From Planctomycetota bacterium (GTDB taxonomy: Bacteria; Planctomycetota; Planctomycetia; Pirellulales; Pirellulaceae): a stretch of 38,466 nt of DNA. Shown here piece by piece: positions 5,401 through 37,673 of the stretch (position 1 is its first letter; every line of letters starts with the position of its first letter). The stretch spans positions 1-38,466 of the forward strand of contig JAQCHP010000034.1 in the NCBI GenBank assembly GCA_027619595.1. Direction: 5' to 3'. Under the pieces are notes generated by a model, which saw only the letters and a program-made list of their open reading frames with translations, had not been told where the DNA came from and ran no database searches. The position numbers and the translations under genes were made by a program.

Positions 5401-5485
5401 CAGACTTCGGAATCACTCAGACTTCGGAATCACTCAGACTTCGGAATCACTCAGACTTCGGAATCACTCAGACTTCGAAATGACC
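5401..5485. repeat. 17-bp tandem repeat across a stop codon
   Basis: Four perfect copies of CAGACTTCGGAATCACT (5401-5468) are followed by a fifth, diverged copy (5469-5485). The diverged copy encodes the last residues of the SUMF1-glycosidase gene on the minus strand, and its stop codon sits at the boundary. The perfect copies lie just downstream of that stop. Seventeen is not a multiple of three, so each duplicated stop lies in a different frame. Confidence 0.9.
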
Positions 5486-10377: not shown

Positions 10378-10457
10378 CGGCTCGGCAAAGTGCTTACCCA
10401 TTTACCCTCAATACGAATTCAAATCACACTGCGACGCTCAAGAAACGAGATACCACG

Positions 10458-11918
10458 ATGAATGCGACACACATGAACGATGCAATCGTATCCAATGTGC
10501 CAACCGCGCGTCGTCATTTTCTTGCACAGTGCGGCGTGGGAGTCGGATGGATGGCGCTCGCTGCGCACCTGCAGCGAGAAGTAGTGGCTGCTTCGCCGTC
10601 CAACCATGCCGCAGCAAATCCGCTACGGCCTCGCCAGCCCCACCATCAGCCGACCGCCAAATCGATCATCTTTTTGTGCATGGCCGGAGGGCCCAGCCAA
10701 TTGGAGACATTTAGCCACAAGCCGGAACTGGCCAAGTTACACGACAAGGCCCCTCCTCCCAGCATCTTGGAGGGGCGACGTTTCGCCTTCTTGAAAGGGA
10801 ACGAAAAACTTTTAGGGCCGCTGCGACCGTTTTCGCAATATGGACAGAGTGGCGCATGGGTGTCCGATTTGCTGCCCCATTTGCAGAAGCAGGTTGATGA
10901 CATGTGCATCATCAATAGCATGCAGACCGATGTATTTAACCATGGACCGGCCAAGACGTTTCTTAATTGCGGATCATCGCTTATGGGACGTCCCAGCATG
11001 GGCGCATGGTTGACCTACGGACTAGGGAGTGAGGCAGACGACCTGCCCGGCTTTGTTGTCATGCTATCGGGTCCCCGCGGACCACGTAACGGAGCCCAAC
11101 TCTGGTCGAGCGGATTCCTTCCAACCACGTATCAAGGGGTAGCGTTTCGCAATAGTGGTTCACCAGTACTCAACCTGGAAACGCCACCTGGTATCGATCC
11201 GCAGCAACAGGCAGAGTTTTTCTCCACTGTGTCGCAGCTCAACACGCTTCGCCAAGAAGCTGTGGGCGATCCAGAAATCTCGACGCGCATCGCCGCGTAT
11301 GAGACAGCCTATCGCATGCAGATATCGGCGCCGGAACTCATCGATCTGTCACGAGAATCTCAGGCAACCCTCGACGCATATGGCGCAACACCGTCGGAGC
11401 CCTCCTTTGCCAACAACTGCCTCCTCGCGCGACGGCTGGTCGAAAAAGGGGTACGCTTTGTGCAACTGTACCATACGAACTGGGACCATCACGGCGGCGC
11501 AGAAAACATCAATACCGACTTGCCGCTGCGTTGCCAACAGATTGACCAACCGGTAGCAGCATTACTGAACGACCTGAAAGAGCGCGGGCTGCTTCAGGAC
11601 ACGATTGTGGTTTGGGGGGGGGAATTTGGGCGGACGCCGTTGGGGGAAATCCGAGCGGATACCGTGGGACGTGATCATCACATTGATGGGTACACGATGT
11701 GGTTGGCAGGGGGGGGATTTCGGCCGGGGACGGTGTGGGGACGCACCGATGAACTAGGCATGGGAGTAGTTGAAAATCCCGTGCACGTGCATGACCTCCA
11801 TGCGACATTGCTGCATTGCATGGGGATCGAACACACTCAGCTTACGTATCGATTTCAAGGACGTGATTTTCGGCTCACTGACGTGCATGGTCGGGTCGTA
11901 CGCGAGATTCTGGCATGA
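10458..11918 (+). CDS. DUF1501 protein, pair A
   Basis: A 486-residue protein of the DUF1501 family, distantly related to alkaline phosphatase/sulfatase-fold enzymes. An N-terminal Tat-like signal is visible: Arg18-Arg19 in ARRHFLAQ followed by a hydrophobic stretch to about residue 37, so export in folded form is likely. Family motifs follow: AGGPSQLETF (76-85), NWDHHGG (341-347), WGGEFGRTP (386-394), GRDHH (404-408) and MWLAGGG (414-420). The Asp and His residues are candidate metal ligands. The gene follows its PSD1 partner, and its start has a weak AACGAG ribosome binding site. Substrate unknown. It converges with pair B across a spacer holding a large inverted repeat. Confidence 0.92.
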   Translation: MNATHMNDAIVSNVPTARRHFLAQCGVGVGWMALAAHLQREVVAASPSNHAAANPLRPRQPHHQPTAKSIIFLCMAGGPSQLETFSHKPELAKLHDKAPPPSILEGRRFAFLKGNEKLLGPLRPFSQYGQSGAWVSDLLPHLQKQVDDMCIINSMQTDVFNHGPAKTFLNCGSSLMGRPSMGAWLTYGLGSEADDLPGFVVMLSGPRGPRNGAQLWSSGFLPTTYQGVAFRNSGSPVLNLETPPGIDPQQQAEFFSTVSQLNTLRQEAVGDPEISTRIAAYETAYRMQISAPELIDLSRESQATLDAYGATPSEPSFANNCLLARRLVEKGVRFVQLYHTNWDHHGGAENINTDLPLRCQQIDQPVAALLNDLKERGLLQDTIVVWGGEFGRTPLGEIRADTVGRDHHIDGYTMWLAGGGFRPGTVWGRTDELGMGVVENPVHVHDLHATLLHCMGIEHTQLTYRFQGRDFRLTDVHGRVVREILA

Positions 11919-11987
11919 TCCCAAGATAAGCACGAGACGTTAACAGCATCCGAAGTTATCAAGGCAATTCTTCGTCAACTCAGTACC

Positions 11988-12101
11988 CGCGTACGCCTCC
12001 GGCCGGCATGTTTAACCGTTAGCCGTAGGCCCAACGTCGTCTCGGTAATCGCGTAGACCTTCGGCTAACGGTTAAACATCAGAGGGCCGAAGGCGTACGC
12101 G
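11988..12101. repeat. Large inverted repeat between convergent genes (REP-like)
   Basis: The left arm (about 11988-12029) and right arm (about 12057-12101) are near-complementary. The outer blocks are CGCGTACGCC and GGCGTACGCG. The inner blocks are ATGTTTAACCGTTAGCCGTA and, on the opposite strand, the same with one base changed. The loop is about 28 nt. It sits between two convergent DUF1501 genes, so it could act as a bidirectional terminator or be a REP/BIME-like element. A related third segment lies at 12144-12165. Confidence 0.75.
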
Positions 12102-12143
12102 ATCTTGGATGTATGATCGATTCACCAAAACGCAAGACACAGT

Positions 12144-12165
12144 CGCCTACGGCTTGCCGTTAAAC
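12144..12165. repeat. Third, partial copy of the REP-like motif
   Basis: CGCCTACGGCTTGCCGTTAA is a close variant of the inner arm of the inverted repeat at 11988-12101 (TACGGCTAACGGTTAAAC on the matching strand). It lies alone, about 32 bp before the end of the pair B DUF1501 gene. Confidence 0.55.
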
Positions 12166-12196
12166 GATTCAATGTTCGCGACTCGCCTGCAAGTGA

Positions 12197-13630
12197 CTAC
12201 GCGATCAGTTCCTGCACCACACGGGCCCTGGTGACCTTTGCGTCGGTCAGGGTCTCTTCGACGCCATGGTGACGAAACGACAATCGATTCTGATCCAGTC
12301 CCAGTTGGTGCAAAATGGTCGCTAAGAAGTCGGGCACGCTGACACGATTTTCGGTGGCACGATACCCGAAGTCATCCGTAGCGCCGTGCACGTGCCCCCG
12401 CTTAAATCCGCCTCCGGCCAGAAACAGACTAAAAGCATGCCGATTGTGGTCTCGACCGTCTTTCCCTTGCGTGATCGGCAATCGACCAAACTCACCCGAC
12501 CAAATCACGATCGTCTCGTCCAACATCCCGCGATTTTTAAGATCGGTAATTAATGCCGCGGTCGGCTTATCGGTCATTTCGCATAGCTCTCGCACCTTGT
12601 TCGTATTGTTGCTATGCGTGTCCCAAGGACTCCCAGTACCTGGGAAGACTTGCACGAAACGAACGCCGGCCTCGATCAGTCGCCGCGCCATCAAACATCG
12701 TCGGCCGTATCCTGCAGTAACCGGATTATCGAGCCCATACATACGGTGAGTCGCCTCCGTCTCGCTCGATAGATCCACCACACGATCGGCCGACATCTGC
12801 ATGCGCGCAGCGAGTTCGTAATTGCGAATCCGGGTCTCAAGTTCTGACTCGTTGTTATGCTTCCGCCGGTGCCGCTGGTTCAACCACGCCAACAACTCAA
12901 GGTTGTCGTGTTGGACACCGGGCGGCAAGACTGCTGTCGGTTTCAGATTGTGTACTGCCGCACCCCGAGAATTGAACTCCGTGCCGCGGTAAAGTGCCGG
13001 CAGCCAACCGTTGTCCCATAAGCGTGAGCCATTGCCCGGAGGACCGTCCGGATCGACTAGCACTAAGTAGGCTGGCAGGTCCTGACTCTCCGTACCCAAT
13101 CCATAGGTCACCCAAGACCCTAGTGTAGGGCGCCCCGGAATTATTTTTCCCGTCTGAAATAGCTGTTGTGCTTCGGGGTGATTGTTATTCTCGCTAAACA
13201 TGGAACGAACCAAACACAGGTTGTCCGCCACTCCGCCAATATGCGACAACAGTTCCGACAATACCATCCCCGATTCACCGCGCGGCGAAAAACGAAACGG
13301 ACTCCCCAACAGTTGCTGCGACTCACTTCCTTTCTGAAAACTCTCGATGCTCTTGCTCGGAAGCTTCTCACCATCTCGCTTCGAAAGTTCCGGCTTGGGA
13401 TCAAACAAGTCCATTTGACTCGGACCGCCCTCCTGAACCAACTGAATGACGGCTTTGGCTCGCGATGGAAAATGTCCCGTCCTGGGACGCAAATTGAGCG
13501 CCGGTTCCGCACCACTCGCCTCATTCGAAAGCAAACCGTCACCGGCCAAGATCTGAGCCAATGCTAGACTGCCAATACCGAGCCCGTTCTGTTGCAAAAA
13601 TGACCGTCTCGATTGTCCATTCGTTGACAT
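12197..13630 (-). CDS. DUF1501 protein, pair B
   Basis: A 477-residue DUF1501 protein with a clear Tat signal: Arg8-Arg9 in QSRRSFLQQ, then a hydrophobic stretch to about residue 29. Conserved motifs are EGGPSQMDLFDPKP (67-80), WDTHSNN (336-342), WSGEFGRLP (377-385), GRDHN (392-396) and LFLAGGG (412-418). Compared with pairs A and C the WGGEF motif reads WSGEF and GRDHH reads GRDHN, so it may have diverged in substrate or metal binding. The gene begins 7 bp after the stop of its PSD1 partner and is clearly cotranscribed with it. Its reaction is unknown. Confidence 0.92.
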   Translation of the reverse strand: MSTNGQSRRSFLQQNGLGIGSLALAQILAGDGLLSNEASGAEPALNLRPRTGHFPSRAKAVIQLVQEGGPSQMDLFDPKPELSKRDGEKLPSKSIESFQKGSESQQLLGSPFRFSPRGESGMVLSELLSHIGGVADNLCLVRSMFSENNNHPEAQQLFQTGKIIPGRPTLGSWVTYGLGTESQDLPAYLVLVDPDGPPGNGSRLWDNGWLPALYRGTEFNSRGAAVHNLKPTAVLPPGVQHDNLELLAWLNQRHRRKHNNESELETRIRNYELAARMQMSADRVVDLSSETEATHRMYGLDNPVTAGYGRRCLMARRLIEAGVRFVQVFPGTGSPWDTHSNNTNKVRELCEMTDKPTAALITDLKNRGMLDETIVIWSGEFGRLPITQGKDGRDHNRHAFSLFLAGGGFKRGHVHGATDDFGYRATENRVSVPDFLATILHQLGLDQNRLSFRHHGVEETLTDAKVTRARVVQELIA

Positions 13631-13637
13631 CGTCTCA

Positions 13638-16355
13638 TTACTCCACGTAAATGAACTCGTTTGTGTTCAGCAGCGTTTGACAGAAACTCACCAGCGCACG
13701 AAAGGACCCTTGTTCGGCACCGGCGTTAGGGGATTCCATCAATGCCGCTTGACCCGTCAAATACGCCTGGAACCGTGAAACCTCGTCTGCATCCGGTTTT
13801 CTCGCCAGCGTAAGCCGAAACGCCAGCACGATCTGATCGTCCGTATTGCCACCTGCTTCCCGCAGAACGCGACGCGCCAGTTGTTCCGCCTGTTCCCAAA
13901 CGAGATCACCGTTCATCATCGTAAGTGACTGCAACGGCACTGCCGAAGCCTGCCGCGCCACGCAATTGACGTTCATGCTCGGCTGATCGAAAACGCTCAG
14001 AAACGACAAATTGCATTGTCGTCGATTGAGCAAGTAGAGACTGCGTCGCCAACGTGCAGCGGGAGAATTAGGCTGCTTGTCCGAAATGACCGTCATTCCA
14101 TCGGGTTGCACAACGGTAAGCACCGGCGCCCCGCCGATTTCAGGGTTTAATGAGCCGCTCGCAGACAACATCGCATCCCGTATGCATTCCGACTCCAAGC
14201 GTCGCAGCCGCATTTTCCACAGAAGCTCGTTCCCCGGGTCCACAAGTTCAGCCGACACGGCAACGCTTGTGCCGACACGCAGTTCTTCGTTCGAGTCGCG
14301 GTAGGTCGCCTGCCGGTAGGTACTCGACAAGAGAATGGTCCGCAGGATTGGCTTGACACGCCACCCACCTTGCACGAATTCACGTGACAACCAGTCAAGC
14401 AGCTCAGGATGCGTCGGCGGCGTTCCGGTCACGCCAAAATTATCGCGAGACGCCACGATTCCGCGTCCCGTGAGCTGATACCACAGACGGTTCACGAGAA
14501 TACGCACTGTTAAGGCCGAAGCGGGGGACTGTGGATTCGTAATCCACTGGGCGACGGCCGTCCGCCGACCGCTGCTCGTTGCGCTGATAGGCTCAACCGG
14601 CATCCATGTATCCACCTCGGCATTCGAAAGGGCCGCCAAAAATCCTGGCTCGACCTGCCCCGCGGGCGATTCATGATCCCCCCGATGCAAAATGTACGTC
14701 GGTGGTGGCGCACCAACATCATAAACCGCCTGCAAAATGCCGTAGGAACGGCGATCTCGCTGAGTAGCTGCCAAACCGCCTTGGATTTCGTCTCGCACGA
14801 TCTGATCGGATGCACTGAGAAACGGACCAGTATCTTCGAGTGTCACCTTTGACAGTGGCGCAAACTGCTTTGCCAGATACTTCTGAATTTCGTCACGGTC
14901 GGCTGGCAGAGTGTCCAATGCCTTCTGCGTATCGGATCGAATCGCAACCGGCAGACTCGCGATCCGGGATTCGAGCACTTGCTTGACATACGGCTGCTTG
15001 AGCGACTCAGCACGTTCATTGAGCTTTGCCACGCTGGCATCTAGACATCGATTGTGCTCGTCAATCGCCTCTTTTTCTCTCTGCGGCACGTCCGCCACAG
15101 GCCGCGTCTGGGGATTTTTCCATTCGTTAGGGTTGAATGCGGGCGTAAAGATTGCCATTAACCGGTAGTAGTCCTCCTGACTAACTGGCTCATATTTGTG
15201 GTCATGACATCGAGCACATTGCAAACTTAATCCCAAAAAATTGCTGCCAAAAATCTGTAGTGTGTCGTAGAGGACCTCATATCGTTTGAGAACGGGAGCG
15301 ATGGACTCGTCGGTTCGATCTTCGGCGTTGCGTAAATAGCCGGTCGCAATCAACGGGTCGATTGTTCTTTGCGTAAATTGATCGGCCACGCGCCAGTCGG
15401 ATAATTCATCCCCCGCTAACTGTTCTGCAATAAACTCATTGAATGCACGATCCGCATTCATGCTACGCACGACGTAGTCACGATAGTGCCATTTGTTGTC
15501 GGTGCGAATAAACTGCGCGATATTGACGTCGTAACCGAGCGTATCGACGTACCCGGATACGTCCAGCCAATGACGCCCCCAACGCTCTCCGAATGTCGGT
15601 ACGTTCAGCAAACGATCGACGAGACGTTCGTACGCGTCGGGACGCGGGTCCCGTACAAACTCATCGACCTCTTCGGGGGATGGGGGCAGACCGGTAAGGT
15701 CAAATGTTACGCGGCGGATCAACGTGATTCGATCAGCGTCTGGCGCAAGCAATATGCCATGGCCTTCCAGCTTCGCTAGAACAAAGGCATCGACGGGGGT
15801 TCTCATCCGGTGCGCAATGTCGACCACGTTCGGTATCGCAACTGCCTGAAGCGGCCGGAACGACCAGTGCTTGTTCGCCACTTCCGCGTTGCTCGCCGTA
15901 TCGCGGAGACGAGTTCCTTGCGGCCACGGCGCGCCTTGCTGCACCCACCGCCTCACTGCGACAATCTCGCTGTCGGTCAACTTGCCATTCGGTGGCATAC
16001 TGAGATCGCCCGATTGCTCGATCGCTGCGATTAGCAAACTCGCGTCAGGATCCCCTGGGACGATCGCCGGACCAGATTCGCCACCTTGCAGGAGCGTTTC
16101 CCGACTGATCACCTGCAGACTCCCAGACGCCTTATCCTCGCTGTGACATGCATGGCACCTGGCGATAAATAATGGGCGCACTTGGAGTTCAAAAAACTCG
16201 TCAGCTGCCGCATCTACCGCCAGCGAAGAACTGTCTGACACCGCTGCCGTCGATTGCTCAACCGTGGTTTCACCAGCACGCCCGGCATCACGCCCAGAGA
16301 CCAGCAGACTCAACAAGCCCAATACAAACAGATTGCGGTAGGGTAGGGGGGGCAA
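13638..16355 (-). CDS. PSD1 / DUF1549 / DUF1553 protein, pair B
   Basis: At 905 residues this is the largest of the three PSD1 proteins here. A signal peptide (about residues 1-27) and a cytochrome-c-like domain with CHACH at 67-71 are followed by DUF1549, containing GERWGRHWLDVSGYVDT and CARCHDHKYEPVS. A long middle region of about 200 residues, partly coiled coil, leads to DUF1553, ending in LLNTNEFIYVE. The start is a TTG at 16355 directly after an in-frame TGA. A strong AAAGAGG ribosome binding site seven bases upstream supports it, and no ATG lies nearby. A promoter candidate sits 40-68 bp upstream, so pair B is probably transcribed independently of pair C even though pair C ends only 84 bp away. 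Confidence 0.92.
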   Translation of the reverse strand: MPPLPYRNLFVLGLLSLLVSGRDAGRAGETTVEQSTAAVSDSSSLAVDAAADEFFELQVRPLFIARCHACHSEDKASGSLQVISRETLLQGGESGPAIVPGDPDASLLIAAIEQSGDLSMPPNGKLTDSEIVAVRRWVQQGAPWPQGTRLRDTASNAEVANKHWSFRPLQAVAIPNVVDIAHRMRTPVDAFVLAKLEGHGILLAPDADRITLIRRVTFDLTGLPPSPEEVDEFVRDPRPDAYERLVDRLLNVPTFGERWGRHWLDVSGYVDTLGYDVNIAQFIRTDNKWHYRDYVVRSMNADRAFNEFIAEQLAGDELSDWRVADQFTQRTIDPLIATGYLRNAEDRTDESIAPVLKRYEVLYDTLQIFGSNFLGLSLQCARCHDHKYEPVSQEDYYRLMAIFTPAFNPNEWKNPQTRPVADVPQREKEAIDEHNRCLDASVAKLNERAESLKQPYVKQVLESRIASLPVAIRSDTQKALDTLPADRDEIQKYLAKQFAPLSKVTLEDTGPFLSASDQIVRDEIQGGLAATQRDRRSYGILQAVYDVGAPPPTYILHRGDHESPAGQVEPGFLAALSNAEVDTWMPVEPISATSSGRRTAVAQWITNPQSPASALTVRILVNRLWYQLTGRGIVASRDNFGVTGTPPTHPELLDWLSREFVQGGWRVKPILRTILLSSTYRQATYRDSNEELRVGTSVAVSAELVDPGNELLWKMRLRRLESECIRDAMLSASGSLNPEIGGAPVLTVVQPDGMTVISDKQPNSPAARWRRSLYLLNRRQCNLSFLSVFDQPSMNVNCVARQASAVPLQSLTMMNGDLVWEQAEQLARRVLREAGGNTDDQIVLAFRLTLARKPDADEVSRFQAYLTGQAALMESPNAGAEQGSFRALVSFCQTLLNTNEFIYVE

Positions 16356-16394
16356 TCAGCGACCTCTTTCTTAGCGCAACGGTGGGAGCGTTAC

Positions 16395-16423
16395 AGTTTA
16401 ACTCGGTCAAACTAGGAGGTCAA
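16395..16423 (-). promoter_or_regulatory. Candidate promoter for pair B
   Basis: On the minus strand TTGACC (16423-16418) and TAAACT (16400-16395) are 17 bp apart. The predicted transcript would start about 33 nt before the TTG start at 16355. A second TTGACC lies within the spacer, so alternative spacing or a repeated binding site is possible. Confidence 0.45.
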
Positions 16424-16439
16424 CCGACAGCAACTCCTG

Positions 16440-17873
16440 CTACAGAATCTCGCGGATCACGCGACCGTGAACTTGCGTCAAGCGTTCATTCCGTCCGAGA
16501 TGAGGGAACGTCAACTGGTCTTGATCGAGCCCAAGTTGATTCAAGATCGTCGTATGAATATCGCGAAAGTGACAAGGTCTTTCCACGGCACGTAGGCCAA
16601 TCGCGTCGGTAGCGCCAACGACGCGTCCCCCTTGCACTCCTCCGCCAGCCATCCACATCGTGAATCCAAGGTTATGGTGGTCGCGTCCCACGCCGGCTTG
16701 CGCTTCGGGCGAACGTCCGAATTCGCCCCCCCACAGAACGAGCGTCGTATCGAGCAGTCCGCGACGCTTCAGGTCGGTGATCAAAGCGGCGATCGGTTGA
16801 TCTGTTTCGGCGGCCATGCGAAGGTGATTTTCTTCGATGTCTTTGTGCGCGTCCCACTGCTGCATCGCCGCACCACCTCCTGAAACGACCACAGTGAAAC
16901 GCACACCGTTTTCAACTAAACGACGCGCCAGTAAACATCGCCTTCCGTAGTCGTCAGTCGGTTGGGAGCCGACACCGTACAACTTCAGTGTCTCTTCGGT
17001 TTCATTGTTCAGATCTAAAATCTCTGGTGCCTCCGTTTGCATACGAAAAGCCAGCCCGTAGGTCCGAATCCGCGCCGCCAATTCGTCTTGCTCTTCCGCC
17101 GAGGAAGCCTCATTAAGCTGCTGGATCAGTTCGATCGTCTGGTAGCGGTCTTGGCTGCTAATCCCGGCGGGCAGGCCCAGATTCAAGACGGGGCGATCTC
17201 CGGGCCGAAAGACGGTGGGCTGGTACGCCGCAGGTAGGAACCCGTTTCCGTACATCGGCTGCCCTGCCTCCAACGCACCATCGGGATCGGGCATCACCAC
17301 GTACGCCGGCAAAGCATCCGATTCCGAACCTAAGCCATAAATCGACCATGCGCCCATGCTCGGAAACCCCGGCATCACACGCCCGGACATCAATTCATAT
17401 TGGGCCGCCGAGTGAACTACTCGATCGCCATAACAAGAACGAATCACAGCGATCTCGTCGATCACCTTTGCCACATGCGGAAACAGATCCGATACTTCGA
17501 TCCCACTCTGTCCACACCTGGCAAACGTGCGTTTCGATCCCAGTAACCGTGCTTCCTTGGAGACAAACTGGTACTTCGCCTCTCCAAACTCCTGGGGACG
17601 AGTTTGGCCGTCAAGCTTATTTAGCAGCGGCTTGGGATCGAACGTTTCAAGATGACTTGGGCCTCCCGCCATGAACAGAAAGACCACCGACTTCGCTCTT
17701 GCCGGAAAGTGTGAAGCCTTGGCGGCGAGCGGCGAATTTGGCTCCGCGCGCAGACGCTCCTGTGCCATCATGGAAGCCATCGCGAGGGACCCCAGCCCGC
17801 AAAAGCTTTCGGTCAAGAACCGGCGACGACCTTGATGGGGGAGTAGCGACATGCAGAGTGGCCTCAGTCTCAT
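16440..17873 (-). CDS. DUF1501 protein, pair C
   Basis: A 477-residue DUF1501 protein. An N-terminal twin-arginine type signal (GRRRFLTES, residues 15-23) precedes a short hydrophobic region. Family motifs are FMAGGPSHLETFDP, WDAHKD, LWGGEFGRSP, GRDHHNLGF and MWMAGGG, all in the usual order. The ATG at 17873 overlaps the stop of the upstream PSD1 gene as ATGA, which supports this start over an ATG seven codons later and implies translational coupling. It is probably exported by Tat to act with the PSD1 protein; the reaction is not known. Confidence 0.92.
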   Translation of the reverse strand: MRLRPLCMSLLPHQGRRRFLTESFCGLGSLAMASMMAQERLRAEPNSPLAAKASHFPARAKSVVFLFMAGGPSHLETFDPKPLLNKLDGQTRPQEFGEAKYQFVSKEARLLGSKRTFARCGQSGIEVSDLFPHVAKVIDEIAVIRSCYGDRVVHSAAQYELMSGRVMPGFPSMGAWSIYGLGSESDALPAYVVMPDPDGALEAGQPMYGNGFLPAAYQPTVFRPGDRPVLNLGLPAGISSQDRYQTIELIQQLNEASSAEEQDELAARIRTYGLAFRMQTEAPEILDLNNETEETLKLYGVGSQPTDDYGRRCLLARRLVENGVRFTVVVSGGGAAMQQWDAHKDIEENHLRMAAETDQPIAALITDLKRRGLLDTTLVLWGGEFGRSPEAQAGVGRDHHNLGFTMWMAGGGVQGGRVVGATDAIGLRAVERPCHFRDIHTTILNQLGLDQDQLTFPHLGRNERLTQVHGRVIREIL

Positions 17874-20188
17874 CGTACGTATAAAAATGCATTGATATTA
17901 AAGATCGCGAGCGCGAACTCGCGGTGTGCTCCACGCTCGAGAAACGCTTTTGCTAGGCGAACTTCTTCTGGGTTCGGCGACCTACCGGTCGCCATCCGAA
18001 ACCCAAGCTCAATTTGCGACTGGGAGTCACCCGCCGCGAGGCCAGCTAGATGTGACGCGAAACGATCCGCCAGATCATTCGAGGTTCTACCGTTCAGCAG
18101 TTCGAGCGCCTGGGGGACATGTGTACTCGCTTCCCGATTGGCACAACTCGCCTGTAACGTCGGTTGATCGAACGCCTCCATCAAGGGGAGCCGAAGATTG
18201 CGTTTGGCGATCAAATAGATGGACCGCCGCGCCTGCTGGGAGCGTTCCTCCGTCACCTTCCATTGGCTGGGATCGTAGAGTTGTTTCACCAACTCTTCTT
18301 CCACCGGTAGCATGACGCTCGGCCCCCCGATTTCACGATTGAGTTGACCGGAGAGCAGAAGCATCGAATCGCGAATCTCTTCAGCACTCAGTCGTCGGCG
18401 AGTAAACCGCCCCAGCAACCTATTTTCCGGGTCAATTGTCCGATATCTCGCGGCGTTCGCCATCTCGCTTGACTGCCGGTAGGTACTGCTTAGTACGATC
18501 ATGCGATGTATCGGCTTCAGCTGCCAATTGCTCATGACGAGTCGGCATGCAAGATAATCCAGAAGTTCAAGGTGGCTGGGTGGCATCCCATTTCTACCGA
18601 AGTCGTTGGGACTCGGCACGATGCCGCGGCCGAAGTGGTAATGCCACAATCGATTTGCGATCACGCGAGCGGTCAACGGGTTCTGTCGGTCAACCAACCA
18701 ATCTGCGAGCGCCGTACGGGGCATCGATGCGTGGCGTGGCGCAACGCTCGACGAGCCCAAGGGGAGAACCTCGGGCGGTTGGGGCCAGACCTGGTCGAGC
18801 GGAATCGCCCATTCGCCCCGCCTCAATACGTGAATGGGAGTTTGCTTCGCGAAGTCGTTACGCACCGAACTTACCATCGGAATCGCAGCGGGAAGTTGCT
18901 TTGCAAGGGTCTGAATTTTCGCGATCGTGGCCTTTTCCTCCGCAATCCCTTTATTCGCGAGAAGTTGCGTTAACTCAGCGATTTCGCGCTGAACTCGCGT
19001 CGTTTCGCTCTTCCAAGCCTCGACGTTGTCGCTTTTGACATAGGGGACATCATGTTCGTGGGACGCGGCGAAATACGCCTGCAGGCGATAATAGTCGCGT
19101 TGCGAAATCGGATCGAATTTGTGGTCATGGCACCGCGCACAGCCAACAGTCATGCCAAGAAACGCCGAGCCGATAATGTCCGTCCGCTCCGTCAACACTT
19201 CGTTGCGACTACCTGATACTTCTTGGTTACCAGCATTGCGCCGCACCGCCCCTAGTCGGTGAAACCCCGCCGCGACTTGAAGGCGTCGATCTTCCTCGCT
19301 GATTTCATCTCCGGCGAGCTGTTCGCGAACAAAAGTGTCAAACCCGATCCCCGCATTCAAGGATTGAATGACATAGTCGCGAAATCGCCATGAGTCGGGG
19401 ATCGTTCGGTCGTATTCGAACCCTTCTGTTTCAGCGAACCGAATGACATCCAGCCAATGCTGACCCCAACGCTCGCCATAGTGTGGACTTGCCAACAATC
19501 GATCGACGAGCCTTTCGTATGCGTTTGCAGTTTGGTCGCTAAGAAACTCGTCGATTTCTTGAACGGTTGGCGGCAACCCACATAGGTCGTAATGAACACG
19601 TCGCAACCAATCAACGCGGTCGGCTTCAGCGGATGGTTGTAATTCCGCTTGCTCTAGTTTCGACAGAATGAAATAATCGATCGAGGTTCGGGGCCATGTT
19701 GGGTTTGTGATCACAGGGAGCGGCGGATTCGATATGGGTCGCAGCGACCAAAAGTCACGCCCAGTCTTCAGATCGAATCTGTTTTTTTCCGGATTCGCGG
19801 TCTCGTCGCGTGGATCGGGGGCTCCCATCGTAATCCAACGCTCGATACTCTCGATCTCGTCGTCCGAAAGTCTTCCATCGGGTGGCATTTCCAGGCCATC
19901 GTAGCGAACGGCGGACACAAGGAGGCTCTTGGCAAGGTCGTGCGGGACAACCGCGGGTCCAGATTCACCGCCGGCGAGCGTTCCTTCACGAGAGTCTAAC
20001 CTCAATCCCCCCTTGAGCTGATCCGCTGAGTCGGAATGGCATTGGTAGCAACGCCGAACCAAGACCGGGAGTACATGAGCCTCAAAAAACGCAATTCCAT
20101 CGGTGTCGACGGAAGATTCAGCGGCCGCAACGAGCGGCATCGCCAATACGATCAGACCGACCAGTAATTGTGTGAAATTGCGTCGCAC
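17870..20188 (-). CDS. PSD1 / DUF1549 / DUF1553 protein, pair C
   Basis: A 772-residue exported protein with a signal peptide (residues 1-23, ending AAA). A cytochrome-c-like domain has CYQCH at 47-51. DUF1549 includes GERWGQHWLDVIRFAET and GCARCHDHKFDPIS. A short coiled-coil-like stretch follows, then DUF1553 ending in IFNINAFLYVR. The start is a GTG at 20188 with a purine-rich GGCAGGG upstream. The gene overlaps the DUF1501 gene by 4 bp. Function as for the family: an abundant planctomycete surface protein of undefined chemistry, possibly redox-active if the two CxxCH sites bind heme. Confidence 0.92.
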   Translation of the reverse strand: MRRNFTQLLVGLIVLAMPLVAAAESSVDTDGIAFFEAHVLPVLVRRCYQCHSDSADQLKGGLRLDSREGTLAGGESGPAVVPHDLAKSLLVSAVRYDGLEMPPDGRLSDDEIESIERWITMGAPDPRDETANPEKNRFDLKTGRDFWSLRPISNPPLPVITNPTWPRTSIDYFILSKLEQAELQPSAEADRVDWLRRVHYDLCGLPPTVQEIDEFLSDQTANAYERLVDRLLASPHYGERWGQHWLDVIRFAETEGFEYDRTIPDSWRFRDYVIQSLNAGIGFDTFVREQLAGDEISEEDRRLQVAAGFHRLGAVRRNAGNQEVSGSRNEVLTERTDIIGSAFLGMTVGCARCHDHKFDPISQRDYYRLQAYFAASHEHDVPYVKSDNVEAWKSETTRVQREIAELTQLLANKGIAEEKATIAKIQTLAKQLPAAIPMVSSVRNDFAKQTPIHVLRRGEWAIPLDQVWPQPPEVLPLGSSSVAPRHASMPRTALADWLVDRQNPLTARVIANRLWHYHFGRGIVPSPNDFGRNGMPPSHLELLDYLACRLVMSNWQLKPIHRMIVLSSTYRQSSEMANAARYRTIDPENRLLGRFTRRRLSAEEIRDSMLLLSGQLNREIGGPSVMLPVEEELVKQLYDPSQWKVTEERSQQARRSIYLIAKRNLRLPLMEAFDQPTLQASCANREASTHVPQALELLNGRTSNDLADRFASHLAGLAAGDSQSQIELGFRMATGRSPNPEEVRLAKAFLERGAHREFALAIFNINAFLYVR

Positions 20189-29924: not shown

Positions 29925-31310
29925 GTGCAACTAACATTTGACCGCGGCACGCTATTATTACGGGTCCCAGCTGCGGATCGAGTGACCGGCAGCTTGACCG
30001 AGGCGGGCTGGAAATGGGATCACCGAATACCCGGTTGGCGTTGTGATGCATGGCGATACCGCGGCACAATTGATGGGCTAGCTGCTGCCAATCCTGATTT
30101 AGAGGATCTCGTCCCGGCCTGGGAAAAGGTGATTTGGCCACAGGACGGACTACCGCAGTTGCGACCGGAACAAGACACCGCTCTGGCAAAATGGACTGAA
30201 TCGAGACAAGGAATCGTCATCATGCCTACGGGTACCGGTAAGACCGAAGTGGCCCTGGCGGCCATGCGAGCAACATGCGTTTCAACGCTCATCGTCGCTC
30301 CGGTGCGAGATCTGATGTACCAATGGCATCGCCGTATCGTCCATGGGTTGGGCTACGACGCGGGAATCGTTGGCGACCAGATCTATCGCGTCAAGCCGGT
30401 CTCCGTCACAACCTACGACAGCGCGTGCATTCACATGCATCAGCTCGGAAATCAATTTGCACTCATCATCTTCGACGAATGTCACCATTTGCCGGGACAA
30501 GTCCGCAGTGATGCCGCTCGCATGTCGGCCGCGCCGTACCGGATGGGGTTGACGGCCACACTGGAACGCTCCGATGGCCGCCATGCCGACTTGGTGCAAT
30601 GGATTGGCCCTACAGTGCATGAACTTACTCTGGCGAACGTACGGGGATCGACGCTGGCCAACTATGAGGTCATTCGTATACCGGTTTTTTTGCAGGCGGA
30701 CGAACAATCGCGATACGACGCTTTGTCGCTCAAGATACGACAGTTCATGGCGTACCGCAGCGGCACATCCGAGAAGCAATCGTGGCAAGATGTATGCGCC
30801 AATGCGGGGTCCGACCCTCAATCGCGAGAAATCATGCGGGCGCTCCGCATGAAACAGGCGATTGAGGATCGCGCTCGCGAGAAACTCCGAGTCTTGGAAG
30901 ATCTCTTTCGCCTTCATGCGGGAACTCCTATCATCGTATTCGCCGGGTCGAACGCCATGGCGCGTGAAGTGTCTCGGCGATTTCTCATCCCATGTTTACT
31001 TAATCACTGCGGCAAACACGAACGACTCGATGCGTTAGACGGCCTTAACGACGGACGTTACTCCGCCGTGGTCGCCAATCAAGTATTGGACGAAGGAGTT
31101 GACATACCGGCAGTCAAGGTGGGGATTGTCCTAGGAGGCACTGCCTCGACGCGGCAATCCCGCCAGCGTTTGGGGCGCATCTTGCGGCGTGTGGGCGACG
31201 CGCGTGCCGCCCTCTATGAAGTCGTTTGTGCGGAAACACGTGAAGTGAATCGATCTCGAAAACGGCGAAGTACTGATGCTTTCCAAGGAACACGGCATCG
31301 CCGAATATGA
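29925..31310 (+). CDS. XPB/Rad25-type superfamily 2 DNA helicase
   Basis: A 461-residue helicase. An N-terminal region (1-75; LTFDRGTLLL, GWKWDHRIPGWRCDAWRYR) resembles the small domain before the motor in XPB proteins. RecA domain 1 has a Q-like LRPEQ, Walker A PTGTGKT (101-107), DECHH (184-188) and LTATLERSDGRH (209-220). RSD at 215-217 is where XPB has its RED motif. A helical thumb-like insertion follows (about 255-320), then RecA domain 2 with VVANQVLDEGVDIP (382-395) and QSRQRLGRILRR (411-422). It should unwind or translocate on DNA using ATP. The start is a GTG at 29925. It overlaps the DUF790/Bax1 gene by 35 bp, the partner known from archaea. Confidence 0.88.
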   Translation: MQLTFDRGTLLLRVPAADRVTGSLTEAGWKWDHRIPGWRCDAWRYRGTIDGLAAANPDLEDLVPAWEKVIWPQDGLPQLRPEQDTALAKWTESRQGIVIMPTGTGKTEVALAAMRATCVSTLIVAPVRDLMYQWHRRIVHGLGYDAGIVGDQIYRVKPVSVTTYDSACIHMHQLGNQFALIIFDECHHLPGQVRSDAARMSAAPYRMGLTATLERSDGRHADLVQWIGPTVHELTLANVRGSTLANYEVIRIPVFLQADEQSRYDALSLKIRQFMAYRSGTSEKQSWQDVCANAGSDPQSREIMRALRMKQAIEDRAREKLRVLEDLFRLHAGTPIIVFAGSNAMAREVSRRFLIPCLLNHCGKHERLDALDGLNDGRYSAVVANQVLDEGVDIPAVKVGIVLGGTASTRQSRQRLGRILRRVGDARAALYEVVCAETREVNRSRKRRSTDAFQGTRHRRI

Positions 31311-32493
31311 TTTCGGTGCCCGCCTTATTATACCCGATCGACTGACGCGCCATGCGCATGCTCACTACCTGAAGTATGCTCGTCAAGTCATTCACCTTTA
31401 CGCAAACGGCCGCGGAAAAACTCGGCGGGAGTTGCATACCGCCGTACAGGAGATATTTTCCGACGAACCCGACTGTCCGGTGCGCCGTATTGCGGCTTTT
31501 TGTAAACTACTGGACGAAAATGCCAACTACGATACCGATCGTCGCGGTGCGGCAGCAGCGCTTCGGCGTAAGGTGTTTGGCATTGCCGGAAAATTCCATC
31601 CATTAGTCGAACAACCTGACAATCTATTTGAGTCCTCAGAAATGCTCGTCAAACAAAAGATCAGCGATGCATTAGGCATGCCCTGGGAGCAGATCGACCA
31701 GCGACTGTTCGGGGATGTGATTGAGTTTCAAAGACTACGTGAATTCCAGGAGCCCGAAAGTCCGGCGTTGCTGCTCGCACGATACAACGTCGCACAATTG
31801 CAGGTGGTACTCTATGACGCGATCGATATGACCATCCGAGTCAAGAATGATCTTAAGCTAATCGTACGCCAGGCGAAGTTGACTCAACTCATGCACCGTA
31901 TCCGACCGTATGGAGACGGATACGAAATCCATCTCGACGGACCTGCGTCGGTTCTCCGGCAAACACGCCGCTACGGAATCGCCATGGCCAAGTTCTTGCC
32001 GAGCCTCCTTTCATGTCGCGATTGGAAGATGCGAGCCCGCGTGCAGGCCCGCGGTGGAAATTGGATTGTAGACTTACACCTTACTTCCACTGACGGCTTC
32101 CGCGGTCAAGTTGAATCGCGTGATTTCGACTCCAGCGTCGAGGAGCAATTCGCAAAAAATTGGGGACCTGAGCCAAGAGAGGGTTGGACTCTTCACCGCG
32201 AGGCGACCATTCTGCATCGTGGACAGAAGACGTTTATTCCTGATTTTTCTCTACGACATCTGGACGGCCGTGAGGTGTTGTTCGAAATCGTTGGATTTTG
32301 GACGCCAGAGTATCTGACGGCGAAAGCCGCTACGTTAGAGACGTTTACGGAACACGACATTCTATTGGCCGTGGCGGACGTAAACGTAGCACGTTTCCCC
32401 ATGTTCCAGCGGGCTCCCATCGGCTACAAGAAATCCCTTTCCGTGGCATCGGTGCTGCGAGCTCTCAATGAAACCACTGGAAACAAGTTGTAG
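31276..32493 (+). CDS. Bax1-like (DUF790) nuclease, partner of XPB
   Basis: A 405-residue DUF790 protein. DUF790 is the family of archaeal Bax1, an XPB-associated nuclease that cuts near DNA bubbles. The N-terminal half is helical and starts with the family-typical LIIPDRL and HYLKYARQVIHLY. The C-terminal half holds a PD-(D/E)xK-like core: an upstream acidic SSVEEQFAKNW, then FIPDFSLRH with Asp323, FEIVGFWTPEYL with Glu337, and a lysine soon after. The ATG at 31276 lies inside the end of the helicase gene, so the two products are probably made together. The last 70 bp overlap, antisense, the end of the SUMF1-PEP-CTERM gene at 32424. Confidence 0.88.
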   Translation: MLSKEHGIAEYDFGARLIIPDRLTRHAHAHYLKYARQVIHLYANGRGKTRRELHTAVQEIFSDEPDCPVRRIAAFCKLLDENANYDTDRRGAAAALRRKVFGIAGKFHPLVEQPDNLFESSEMLVKQKISDALGMPWEQIDQRLFGDVIEFQRLREFQEPESPALLLARYNVAQLQVVLYDAIDMTIRVKNDLKLIVRQAKLTQLMHRIRPYGDGYEIHLDGPASVLRQTRRYGIAMAKFLPSLLSCRDWKMRARVQARGGNWIVDLHLTSTDGFRGQVESRDFDSSVEEQFAKNWGPEPREGWTLHREATILHRGQKTFIPDFSLRHLDGREVLFEIVGFWTPEYLTAKAATLETFTEHDILLAVADVNVARFPMFQRAPIGYKKSLSVASVLRALNETTGNKL

Positions 32494-33500
32494 GTTCCCA
32501 ACGCAGAGCGGACAAGAAACAGTGAGATCAGCAAGCTCCCAACGATAGCAGCTGAATTTGGCTCCGGCACCGAAGCCACGCGAAATCCAATGAGATTCAA
32601 CTGATCCGCAACCGAAAATCCATCGTTTCGGATCGGCGCCGATAGCCAGATCGAATCATCGCTCCAATAGCTTCCGCGCAAACCACGAAACGACGCGCTG
32701 ATGGCTGTCTCATTCCACTCCCAGGCATTTCCACCTTGATCCAGTGTGCCATAGGGTCCAGCAGAGCGCGGATACGATCCCACCGGCGTAAACCCGCCCA
32801 CAGCCACGCCAAAACTGGCGGAATTCGCGCCGCCTGGCGGTCTTTCTGCCGACGGAGTCACATTGCTGCGCGTGGGATAGAGCCAATAGTTTCCGGTTAC
32901 GCCGTCATTCTTGTGATACGCAGCCTTATACCATTCATTCTCGTCCGGCAGAAACCACTGGGCGTTAGAGTTGCGAGCAATACTTGGTCCGCTGCTCGGG
33001 ATGGGCGTGTCACCTAAGAGTGTATACGCACCAGACTCTGTACCACTCGGGCCTTGGCCATTGTGGAGCCAGTTTGCAAACCGAACTGCGTCGTACCAGC
33101 TGATGAAATTCACCGGATAGGATTCTTTACCGGGCCGTACAAGATATTTGTTACCCGCTAACGCCGTAACATCTCGTGCAATTCCACCGTTACTGTCGAG
33201 CGACATCCCAGGGTCAAAAAGAGCCAGCCTGTTTTCTCCGAGAGAGTCAACGGCATTCAGGAAAGAAACATATTGGGCATTCGTCACTTCATGCTTACCG
33301 ATTCGGTAATTGTAGGGAACACCTCGTACGGTGGCGTCCGGCCCCGTTCCACCGGCGCCAGCACCCGACAATTGCCCCGCGTTACCGCTGTTACCTATGA
33401 ATACGGTTTCCATTTCTATCGCATATCCCGACTGCAAATGGCATTCGAAGTCTATCAAGCAGACAAGCGTCAGTACACGAGTGGGAAACATTTTTTGCAT
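32424..33500 (-). CDS. Secreted SUMF1-fold protein with PEP-CTERM tail (copy 1)
   Basis: A 358-residue exported protein from the ATG at 33500 (an open frame extends to 33566). A signal peptide is followed by an FGE/SUMF1 domain: YRIGKHEVTNAQY, NFISWYDAVRFANWLHNGQG, WFLPDENEWYKAAYH, TLDQGGNAWEWNET and LIGFRVASV. The cysteines needed for formylglycine generation are absent. VPEP then starts a PEP-CTERM signal with a hydrophobic stretch (AAIVGSLLISLFLV) and Arg, a tag for exosortase sorting. Unusually, 22 more residues follow RSALGT, all encoded antisense to the end of the Bax1 gene. The close paralogue at 36657 lacks this extension. No exosortase gene is in the window. Confidence 0.88.
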   Translation of the reverse strand: MQKMFPTRVLTLVCLIDFECHLQSGYAIEMETVFIGNSGNAGQLSGAGAGGTGPDATVRGVPYNYRIGKHEVTNAQYVSFLNAVDSLGENRLALFDPGMSLDSNGGIARDVTALAGNKYLVRPGKESYPVNFISWYDAVRFANWLHNGQGPSGTESGAYTLLGDTPIPSSGPSIARNSNAQWFLPDENEWYKAAYHKNDGVTGNYWLYPTRSNVTPSAERPPGGANSASFGVAVGGFTPVGSYPRSAGPYGTLDQGGNAWEWNETAISASFRGLRGSYWSDDSIWLSAPIRNDGFSVADQLNLIGFRVASVPEPNSAAIVGSLLISLFLVRSALGTYNLFPVVSLRARSTDATERDFL

Positions 33501-33819
33501 GCAATTCTCCGTCTCAAAATCGCGATGTTGCACCACACCCTGCGGGATATCAACCAACCACTTCACGACGCCTTATCATACCGCATTTCCTGCCCACGGA
33601 ATATCGATATCGAACGGCGGCGACGCATGAGACTCCACTGCTTGAAGAATGCGTCCTAAGTTGGTACCTTCGTTTCTGGAGGCGCCAGTCATTCCTGTAG
33701 CATTCGTTCATCGCCTTGCCACGCATACGTTTGGGGGCATCCGGTTTAGTGAATCCTGTTTGGTTGCAGCCCTCGTTCGGGTAGCGTATGAGTTGGGCAA
33801 TATCCAAAGAAGCCGAAAA
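33501..33819. other. Spacer between SUMF1 copy 1 and the isomerase-like gene
   Basis: About 319 bp. Both flanking frames are open further into it (to 33566 and from 33649), but the translated extensions look non-native. No RNA gene, repeat or convincing promoter was recognised. Confidence 0.5.
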
Positions 33820-36656: not shown

Positions 36657-37673
36657 CTACGAAGTCTTTCTTGGACTCCGCAAGATTGCGACCATTAGAA
36701 GAACGGCACTGGTAACCAGAGGACTGGTATTCGGCTCAGGTACGGTGGCTACGCGAAAACCGATTAGATTCAATTGATCCGAAACAGAAAATCCATCGTT
36801 TCGAATCGGGGCCGACTGCCAGATCCAGGTATCGCTGTAGTAACTTCCGCGTAGCCCCCGAAAATTGGCGCTAATAGCTGTCTCGTTCCACTCCCAGGCA
36901 TTGCCACCCTGATCCAGCGTGCCGTAGGGTCCAAGTGAACGGGGATACGATCCCACAGGAGTAAAATCCCCTACCACCACACCAAAATTTGCTGAATTCG
37001 TACCTCCCGGAGGTACTTGGGCCACCGGAGCCACATTGCTTTGTGTGGGATACACCCAATAGTTTCCAGTCACGCCATCATTTTTGTGATAGGCAGCCTT
37101 GTACCATTCATGCTCGTTGGGCAAGAACCAACGGGCGTCAGGATTTCTAGTAATATTCGCTCCGTTACTCGGCGTCGGCGTGCCACCCAAGAGCGTGTAT
37201 GCGCCTGTCTCCGTATCGCCGGTCCCTTGTCCGTTGTGGAGCCAGTTCGCAAATCGCACCGCGTCGTACCATGAGATAAAATTCACCGGATATTGGTCAC
37301 GCCCAGGCCGCAGTTGGTACTTGTTACCCTGCTGTGCTGCGGCGTCCATCACAATGCCGGCGTTGTGGAATGACGCCATTTCTTGATCGAACAGAGCAAG
37401 CCGATTCACGCTACCGGAATCAACAGCATTGAGGAAGGCAACATATTGGGCATTCGTCACCTCATGTTCGCCAATTCGGTAATCATAGGCCACCCCTCCC
37501 ACAATCGCGTCGGGCCCTACGCCCCCAGCACCGGCACCTGACAATTGCCCTGAATTCCCGGCGTTTCCGACTAAGACGGTTTGCATCTCGAAGGCACTCG
37601 CCTTGTAAGGCCGCCACGCCATCCCGATCACGACGGGGAACACGCAAACGTAGGCGAAATACATGTACCGCAT
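36657..37673 (-). CDS. Secreted SUMF1-fold protein with PEP-CTERM tail (copy 2)
   Basis: A 338-residue exported protein, most of whose SUMF1 domain is identical in sequence to copy 1 at 32424. An N-terminal hydrophobic signal (MRYMYFAYVCVFPVVIG) is followed by the SUMF1 blocks YRIGEHEVTNAQY, NFISWYDAVRFANWLHNGQG, WFLPNEHEWYKAAYH, DQGGNAWEWNETAIS and LIGFRVATV. VPEPN then starts a PEP-CTERM signal with a hydrophobic stretch and ends in RSPRKTS, a normal basic end. It lacks the catalytic cysteines of true FGE, so it is probably a surface-sorted structural or binding protein. The ATG at 37673 has AGG ten bases upstream. Copy 1 lies on the same strand 4.2 kb away, suggesting duplication. Confidence 0.88.
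   Translation of the reverse strand: MRYMYFAYVCVFPVVIGMAWRPYKASAFEMQTVLVGNAGNSGQLSGAGAGGVGPDAIVGGVAYDYRIGEHEVTNAQYVAFLNAVDSGSVNRLALFDQEMASFHNAGIVMDAAAQQGNKYQLRPGRDQYPVNFISWYDAVRFANWLHNGQGTGDTETGAYTLLGGTPTPSNGANITRNPDARWFLPNEHEWYKAAYHKNDGVTGNYWVYPTQSNVAPVAQVPPGGTNSANFGVVVGDFTPVGSYPRSLGPYGTLDQGGNAWEWNETAISANFRGLRGSYYSDTWIWQSAPIRNDGFSVSDQLNLIGFRVATVPEPNTSPLVTSAVLLMVAILRSPRKTS

Follow-up and report, generated by a model that had tools for sequence, protein, structure and literature searches.

An XPB–Bax1-type helicase–nuclease gene pair in a planctomycete of the family Pirellulaceae

The XPB-type helicase and Bax1 nuclease genes

The window analysed in this study is the whole of a 38,466-nucleotide stretch from Planctomycetota bacterium (family Pirellulaceae; assembly GCA_027619595.1, contig JAQCHP010000034.1, positions 1 to 38,466 of the forward strand), in which the gene for an XPB-type superfamily 2 (SF2) helicase overlaps the gene for a Bax1 (DUF790) nuclease. 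A first-pass annotation made from the sequence alone had placed an SF2 helicase and a DUF790 protein with a 35-bp overlap at these positions (Table 1), and Pfam and PDB matches far beyond chance bore this out, both proteins scoring above the Pfam cut-offs. The same 35-bp overlap was found at three more loci (L117, L119, and L120) under the same start rule, and the two overlapping genes may be translationally coupled. A promoter and terminator scan gave nothing above shuffled sequences. In the genome (281 contigs, 96% complete), DUF790 and XPB_DRD were each matched once; Haloferax volcanii, a control, also gave a DUF790 match.

Table 1 Features of the helicase–nuclease gene pair in the window. 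Rows are aligned sequences; the window clade is the 13-row clade to which the window proteins belong.
Feature	Position	Strand	Basis or conservation
XPB-type SF2 helicase, 461 amino acids, GTG start	29925..31310	+	Damage recognition domain (DRD), two RecA-like domains, thumb insertion; Pfam, PDB, model, tree
Damage recognition domain XPB_DRD (PF18458)	29931..30113	+	36.7 bits; sole match found in the genome
Walker A MPTGTGKT, residues 100–107	30222..30245	+	Invariant in 12 aligned window-clade rows
GLTATLERSDGRH, residues 208–220; RED-motif position = R215-S216-D217	30546..30584	+	R-S-D in 10/13 window-clade rows and 5/5 Deinococcus rows
Thumb (ThM) insertion, residues about 258–315, extent approximate	30696..30869	+	Alignment to StXPB, model helices
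Overlap of XPB and Bax1 genes, 35 bp, different frames	31276..31310	+	
Bax1/DUF790 nuclease, 405 amino acids, ATG start	31276..32493	+	DUF790 profile, model, structural matches
Region of proposed N-terminal site, RLFGDVIE, residues 143–150	31702..31725	+	D147 kept; AfBax1 E135 position = I149
Nuclease core D285-S-S-V-E289, P322-D323-F324, E337-I-V-G-F-W342	32128..32301	+	Alignment to AfBax1

The helicase was matched in Pfam by ResIII (77.3 bits, the top match), Helicase_C, ERCC3_RAD25_C (40.4 bits; cut-off 27), and XPB_DRD (cut-off 26), and the motifs PTGTGKT, DECHH, and LTATLERSDGRH were all found. By sequence, its best PDB match was Archaeoglobus XPB (E 5e-85), near-full-length Archaeoglobus and Sulfurisphaera XPB chains ranging from 5e-85 to 2.5e-79. 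The AlphaFold model (pLDDT 91.7) gave TM scores of 0.84/0.89 to XPB of the DNA-bound ternary complex 6p4f (6p4f_C), and the 13 best Foldseek matches by E-value were archaeal XPB chains; the models of XPB and Bax1 were built on 47- and 50-row alignments. In the thumb, W287 occupies the place of the wedge aromatic and aligns to F278 of StXPB (Sulfurisphaera). The helicase grouped with Bax1-linked XPBs (support 100/100), confirming it as an XPB of the Bax1-partner type.

The Mycobacterium-type XPB (NF045503) belongs, like the window helicase, to the SF2 helicases and the XPB superfamily but is thumbless, has a strict R-E-D (8/8 rows), and stands apart as the outgroup (100/100). The thumb segment (W287 region) is present in Bax1-linked rows and gapped in 8/8 Mycobacterium-type rows, in agreement with a passage of PMC3353954 that describes the thumb of M. 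tuberculosis XPB as much shortened and most likely missing. The window helicase did not reach the NF045503 equivalog cut-off (145.8 bits versus 610), and it was the only match of this profile in its own genome at E 1e-20. The window XPB is separate from the Mycobacterium-type bacterial XPB, which is not linked to Bax1 in PMC3353954.

The second protein matched the Pfam DUF790 profile with 292 bits (cut-off 28.8) over its full length (1–387 of 387), so the absence of a DUF790 match, which would have spoken against the pair, was not observed. Its PDB matches by sequence were Bax1 of Pyrococcus (8gy8), Archaeoglobus, and Sulfurisphaera (E 3e-30 to 6e-28), and all eight Foldseek matches of its AlphaFold model (pLDDT 90.8) with E ≤ 0.001 were solved Bax1 chains. 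The two NCBIfam archaeal-Bax1 equivalog models (cut-off 500 bits), named after Archaeoglobus and Sulfurisphaera proteins, were not reached (160 and 136 bits); these scores weaken a putative orthology to that narrow archaeal group, not membership in DUF790. E289, D323, and E337 of the window protein correspond to E275, D305, and E318 of AfBax1, whose catalytic roles are described in passages of PMC7293015. All three were kept in 13/13 window-clade rows, in line with the intact PD-(D/E)xK-like core claimed in the first-pass annotation.

The XPB–Bax1 machine, of a repair type, is known chiefly from work on archaea. The pair resembles the archaeal XPB–Bax1 complexes (Archaeoglobus 6p66; Sulfurisphaera 6p4f, 6p4o, and 6p4w) in the DRD, two helicase domains, and thumb of XPB, in the N-terminal, central, and PD-(D/E)xK domains and E-D-E centre of Bax1, in gene adjacency, and in full-length fold matches. 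It differs from them in having R-S-D for R-E-D (R-D-D in the Sulfurisphaera protein), a tryptophan for the wedge phenylalanine, and isoleucine at AfBax1 E135, with an identity of 22–27% for Bax1 and about 35% for XPB. An association of bacterial DUF790 with helicases has already been noticed in sequence surveys and is not new: a 2005 survey assigned DUF790 to Archaea and Cyanobacteria, in most cases close to helicases of this type. PMC3353954 (2012) says of a bacterial counterpart of such an XPB complex that it 'has not been identified yet'. PMC10614293 and PMC2587704 list D. radiodurans DRA0131 among RAD25/XPB-type proteins, and PMC13024598 still calls XPB function in bacteria and archaea 'more elusive'. 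No description of a planctomycete XPB–Bax1 pair was seen among the literature matches listed, which comprised titles, abstract starts, and passages, with subscription papers mostly outside.

Distribution, pairing, and descent of the two genes

Of the 146 genomes in the order sample, 11 (own genome counted) had DUF790, as did 54 of the 392 in the phylum sample, so the distribution of the pair is patchy. We examined 39 intact planctomycete Bax1 loci (the window, L002–L010, L014, and L074–L101); for the phylum sample, adjacency covers the returned Bax1 loci only (the 28 loci L074–L101 and L010, from the 54 matching genomes). An XPB match was present in the fetched upstream stretch at 31 of the 39 loci, mostly within 1.5 kb; a lack of conserved adjacency in relatives, which the first-pass annotation had named as part of a refutation, was not seen. 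Seven of the eight genomes with an unlinked Bax1 carried a window-type XPB elsewhere, the exception (G267) being 59% complete. XPB and Bax1 of G083 and of the f47/f75 group, though unlinked, still fell into matching clades; in G083, of the same family as the window genome, the genes lie on different contigs (C18:28706-29902 and C29:58245-59612), yet both belong to the window clade. At the other 59 loci (L015–L073), 47 fetched stretches contained an XPB match; some of these matches are incomplete or lie as far as 1.9 kb away, and several stretches end at contig ends. In G140 (same family, 8 contigs), XPB and Bax1 are adjacent (L128, G140:C1:593991-596429) and both fragmented with internal stops; unless this reflects sequencing error, the two genes have decayed together.

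In a phylum sample of 149 genomes, 66 had a Mycobacterium-type XPB scoring above the curated cut-off, at times together with DUF790 in one genome (e.g., G148, G161, G206, G274, and G289). The first-pass annotation had called bacterial XPB better known without Bax1; the link between DUF790 and a helicase in bacteria was already known from the 2005 survey, and 11 Deinococcus plasmid records hold DUF790 as well. The Deinococcus pairs (pDrdI, pDEIPE01, P1, and others) have the same two genes in the same order as the window, touching or overlapping in the five fetched of the 11 records, with R-S-D in 5/5; unlike the window pair, they are plasmid-borne and form a separate lineage in both trees.

Phylogenetic trees were built from 76 Bax1 rows and 76 XPB rows, the latter rooted on the Mycobacterium type. 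Bacteria were represented by Planctomycetota and Deinococcus only, apart from the outgroup, without Cyanobacteria or other bacterial phyla; Thermococci and Asgard archaea were likewise absent, and Sulfolobales and Archaeoglobi were represented by one XPB row each, in a quick tree. Archaeal rows were drawn from a single pattern scan that used the window protein, and they are biased to its motifs; from the 59 scan loci other than L014, 32 (hand-thinned) were kept in the Bax1 tree and 25 in the XPB tree. L070, titled 'bacterium', groups with Nitrososphaerales and was counted as archaeal among the 32. Short-flank duplicates of loci fetched twice were removed beforehand.

In the Bax1 tree, the window clade (13 rows), planctomycete clade B (22 rows), Deinococcus (5 rows), and a haloarchaeal plasmid type (5 rows) were each recovered with 100/100 support, while planctomycete clade C (4 rows, 100/99) stood beside the main archaea (95/93), and the other archaea comprised 27 rows (97/95). 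Clades B and C share the same pair with the window, adjacent at most loci examined, but are distinct Bax1 clades. In the XPB tree, the 68 Bax1-linked rows formed one group (100/100), within which the 25 archaeal rows made a single clade (97/92) with the window clade outside and adjoining clade C (93/90). In both trees, the 13 window-clade rows held together (100/100) on a long stem.

XPB and Bax1 patristic distances were correlated with r = 0.84 over 68 pairs, whereas the highest of 1000 label shuffles reached 0.12. Within clades, r was 0.88 (window clade), 0.88 (clade B), and 0.96 (main archaea), and none of 2000 within-clade shuffles was as high. Shared species history contributes to this correlation. 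The pair very probably works as a unit.

Motif variation in Bax1-linked XPBs and in Bax1

At the RED position, the window helicase retains R and D, with S in place of E, and the first-pass annotation had suggested that DNA unwinding might work differently for this reason. RED-motif tallies, counted by hand from the XPB alignment, gave R-S-D in 10, R-A-D in two, and a degenerate motif in one (L125) of the 13 window-clade rows; R-S-D in 5/5 Deinococcus rows; R-A-D in two and R-P-D in three of the five haloarchaeal plasmid-type rows; and R-E-D in 18 and R-P-D in two of the 20 other archaeal rows. The 21 clade B rows had R-E-D (3), R-D-D (2), other R-x-D (10), or no R-x-D (6), and R-x-D was missing in 4/4 clade C rows, whereas the Mycobacterium type had R-E-D in 8/8. 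Because the crystallised StXPB reads R205-D206-D207 (PMC7672443), a strict E is not required of XPBs that partner Bax1. On this alignment, the middle residue appears free to vary in Bax1-linked XPBs, RSD would be no quirk of the window protein, and the suggestion of a different unwinding mode is unsupported.

A second, N-terminal nuclease site formed by D133 and E135 of AfBax1 is proposed in passages of PMC7293015; it has been reported for Archaeoglobus and Thermoplasma proteins, and we did not take it as defining Bax1. The D133 column was D in all 76 aligned Bax1 rows. The E135 column was acidic in 30/32 archaeal rows but in only 2/44 bacterial rows and 0/13 rows of the window clade, which have I or M there. 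The glutamate of the proposed second site is therefore missing in 42/44 bacterial Bax1 rows, which is the newer point of this comparison. Loss of the N-terminal site in the window clade seems likely but not certain, and the next residue, which is acidic in 13/13 window-clade rows (E150 in the window protein), speaks against plain loss.

Clade B differs from the window at the E275 column, which was not E in 22/22 rows (L/I/M/V); many of these rows have a glutamate one or two columns before it. A shift of nuclease motif I is possible in clade B Bax1 (e.g., L133 and L136).

Genomic neighbourhood and putative role of the pair

Upstream of the pair lie genes for a periplasmic binding protein, a shikimate dehydrogenase, an ABC ATPase, and a permease; downstream, a gene with an FGE-sulfatase domain on the opposite strand overlaps the end of Bax1. 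It is the middle one of three genes on the contig encoding such proteins (5464-7758, 32424-33566, and 36657-37673). A 12-kb part of the window (8047-20188) holds three planctomycete PSCyt1–PSCyt2–PSD1 genes with a DUF1501-type gene beside each, two called by profile and the third (16440-17873) by similarity. The GC content at third codon positions of XPB (0.58) and Bax1 (0.56) is within that of the other called genes of the contig (0.53–0.62). Recent transfer of the pair into the contig was rejected on this flat composition and on the planctomycete-type PSCyt1/DUF1501 genes of the contig; a base composition like that of the neighbours argues only against recent transfer.

In an all-against-all gene-family comparison of 27 stretches (five from Deinococcus), based on crude longest-open-reading-frame calls that missed some pair members, no family besides the pair recurred consistently. 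A fixed third partner was rejected, the best recurrences being a kinase-like family (so named by inspection) at seven loci, an ABC transporter at four, a probable opposite-strand artefact at four, and others at three or fewer. Among the 128 neighbours listed for the window clade, 103 were scanned and 25 left out. Pfam matches of the 103 were mostly to ordinary families (25 of 107 families shown).

We consider it likely that the pair forms a helicase–nuclease heterodimer of the XPB–Bax1 kind, probably with an accessory, non-essential part in processing bubbles and forks. Our data establish the family membership and fold of both proteins, the intact catalytic residues, the gene overlap, the conserved pairing, and the parallel descent; complex formation, cleavage polarity, and role are inferred. 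By homology to the solved archaeal complexes, XPB would sense distorted DNA through its DRD and the R-x-D loop, its thumb would insert the aromatic wedge W287 between the strands, and the bubble would be opened at the expense of ATP. The N-terminal domain of Bax1 would dock onto the thumb and second helicase domain of XPB, and Bax1 would nick one strand at the double-/single-strand junction through a single PD-(D/E)xK centre (E289, D323, and E337). Such a pair may process bubbles or forks where damage is bulky or forks stall, with a complete UvrA/B/C set alongside it, and would not be the main excision repair of the cell.

Matches to UvrA, UvrB, and UvrC were found in the host, and UvrC also in 6/6 related genomes tested, including G140 with its broken pair. 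Because the host has UvrA, UvrB, and UvrC, a primary excision-repair role is doubtful, and a repair role of the kind proposed for the archaeal complex is not secure. In Halobacterium NRC-1, which has an overlapping helicase–DUF790 pair on its plasmid pNRC200, dark repair of UV lesions disappears when uvrA, uvrB, or uvrC is lost; the authors infer that the eukaryotic-type homologues do not act in nucleotide excision repair (NER), leaving transcription-coupled (sub-pathway) or back-up roles open (PMC1590041). An accessory bubble or fork role is therefore favoured over mainline excision repair by UvrABC in the host together with the NRC-1 uvr mutants. In the window genome, a single open frame of 2374 amino acids (G000:C66:39133-44970) contains two complete UvrA matches (1291 and 1221 bits), apparently a tandem UvrA fusion, and there are two further UvrA-type genes. 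On Deinococcus gobiensis plasmid P1 (L114, 5501-9260), the pair directly follows a gene of the spore photoproduct lyase family, a single hint of a UV-damage context.

Several observations weigh against the explanation favoured here. The two genes are unlinked at eight of the 39 planctomycete loci, and R-x-D is degenerate in L125 of the window clade and in some of the remaining planctomycete lineages. The NRC-1 result speaks against a role in UV repair but leaves the proposed accessory role untouched. For bacterial pairs, we found no evidence of a physical or biochemical kind. The patchy, partly plasmid-borne distribution would fit defence too, and the pair might accordingly be a two-gene module for defence or plasmid competition in which XPB tracks foreign DNA and Bax1 cuts it. 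We regard such a module as rather improbable. Besides the patchiness in both the order and phylum samples and the plasmid location in Deinococcus and haloarchaea, the breakage of both genes in G140 and the helicase-plus-nuclease architecture would suit it, as would the resemblance of XPB to PbeA of a phosphorothioation system (PADLOC, 172 bits, E 7e-51, over the SF2 core). A few single neighbours among the 103 also match defence models strongly (PD-T4-6, 5e-87; DrmD, 7e-72; SduA, 9e-71; BrxH, 1e-69). Against it, Bax1 matches no PADLOC model at E 0.01, and the 25 PADLOC families shown, of 92 with a neighbour match at E 1e-10, match one protein each, with the background rate not measured and no defence family seen recurring. 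A search of 50,697 phage records with a clade B Bax1 gave no match, and exact peptide patterns run against viral contigs yielded no relative, either from the window-clade alignment (23 pattern matches) or from one haloarchaeal Bax1; viral carriage of the pair was rejected on these searches. A related archaeal complex, moreover, cuts bubble DNA in vitro according to passages of PMC7293015.

That the helicase is a restriction-type (Dnd/Pbe/ResIII) motor with an incidental nuclease neighbour is highly improbable. Its top Pfam match is indeed ResIII (77 bits), and it also matches PbeA and TIGR04095 (dnd_restrict_1), but the TIGR04095 score is far under the cut-off (120 versus 600 bits), a DRD is present, the best PDB matches are XPBs, the pairing is conserved, and the trees are parallel. 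A restriction or Dnd helicase identity was rejected on the sub-cut-off profile score, the trees holding no Dnd/Pbe helicase; likewise, a grouping with RecG or restriction helicases, named in the first-pass annotation as grounds for refutation, was not seen by profile and PDB scores, no such helicases being in the trees.

Whether the pair came from archaea or is an old bacterial lineage had been posed in the first-pass annotation as a question that one window could not answer, and it is now answered in part: the window XPB is not nested in the sampled archaea, and there is no sign of a recent arrival of the pair. An ancient acquisition from archaea, which would make the pair simply the archaeal complex in a bacterium, seems unlikely to us, though less so than a defence module. 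It draws on the Bax1 tree, where the haloarchaeal plasmid type adjoins the window clade without strong support (94/76), on the narrow bacterial sampling, and on the cost in likelihood of forcing all bacterial Bax1 rows into one clade, a constraint that was not rejected (p = 0.096; for all Planctomycetota, p = 0.072, also not rejected). The archaeal clade of the XPB tree excludes the window clade, and continued to do so when AfXPB and StXPB were added in a quick tree omitting three of the eight outgroup rows (27 archaeal rows together, SH-aLRT [Shimodaira–Hasegawa-like approximate likelihood ratio test] 86); the coherence of the window clade and its long stem in both trees also argue against it. 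In the quick tree the window clade moved beside L099–L101 (SH-aLRT 42); since its neighbour shifts between XPB trees, its deep place is tentative, and the pair may be either an old bacterial heritage or an ancient transfer.

In a bolder reading, which we hold to be less likely than not, bacteria would have old XPB–Bax1 lineages of their own (three or more in Planctomycetota, one in Deinococcus) that were reduced to a single nuclease site, tolerate change or loss of the RED motif, and act outside NER beside UvrABC, the thumbless Mycobacterium-type XPB coexisting in some of the same genomes. Finding the pair in a bacterium that retains UvrABC uncouples the XPB–Bax1 complex from excision repair. 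The purpose of XPB–Bax1 can thereby be tested in genetically tractable organisms, for instance Deinococcus and Haloferax, and the natural variation of the RED motif and of the N-terminal site offers a ready-made mutant series.

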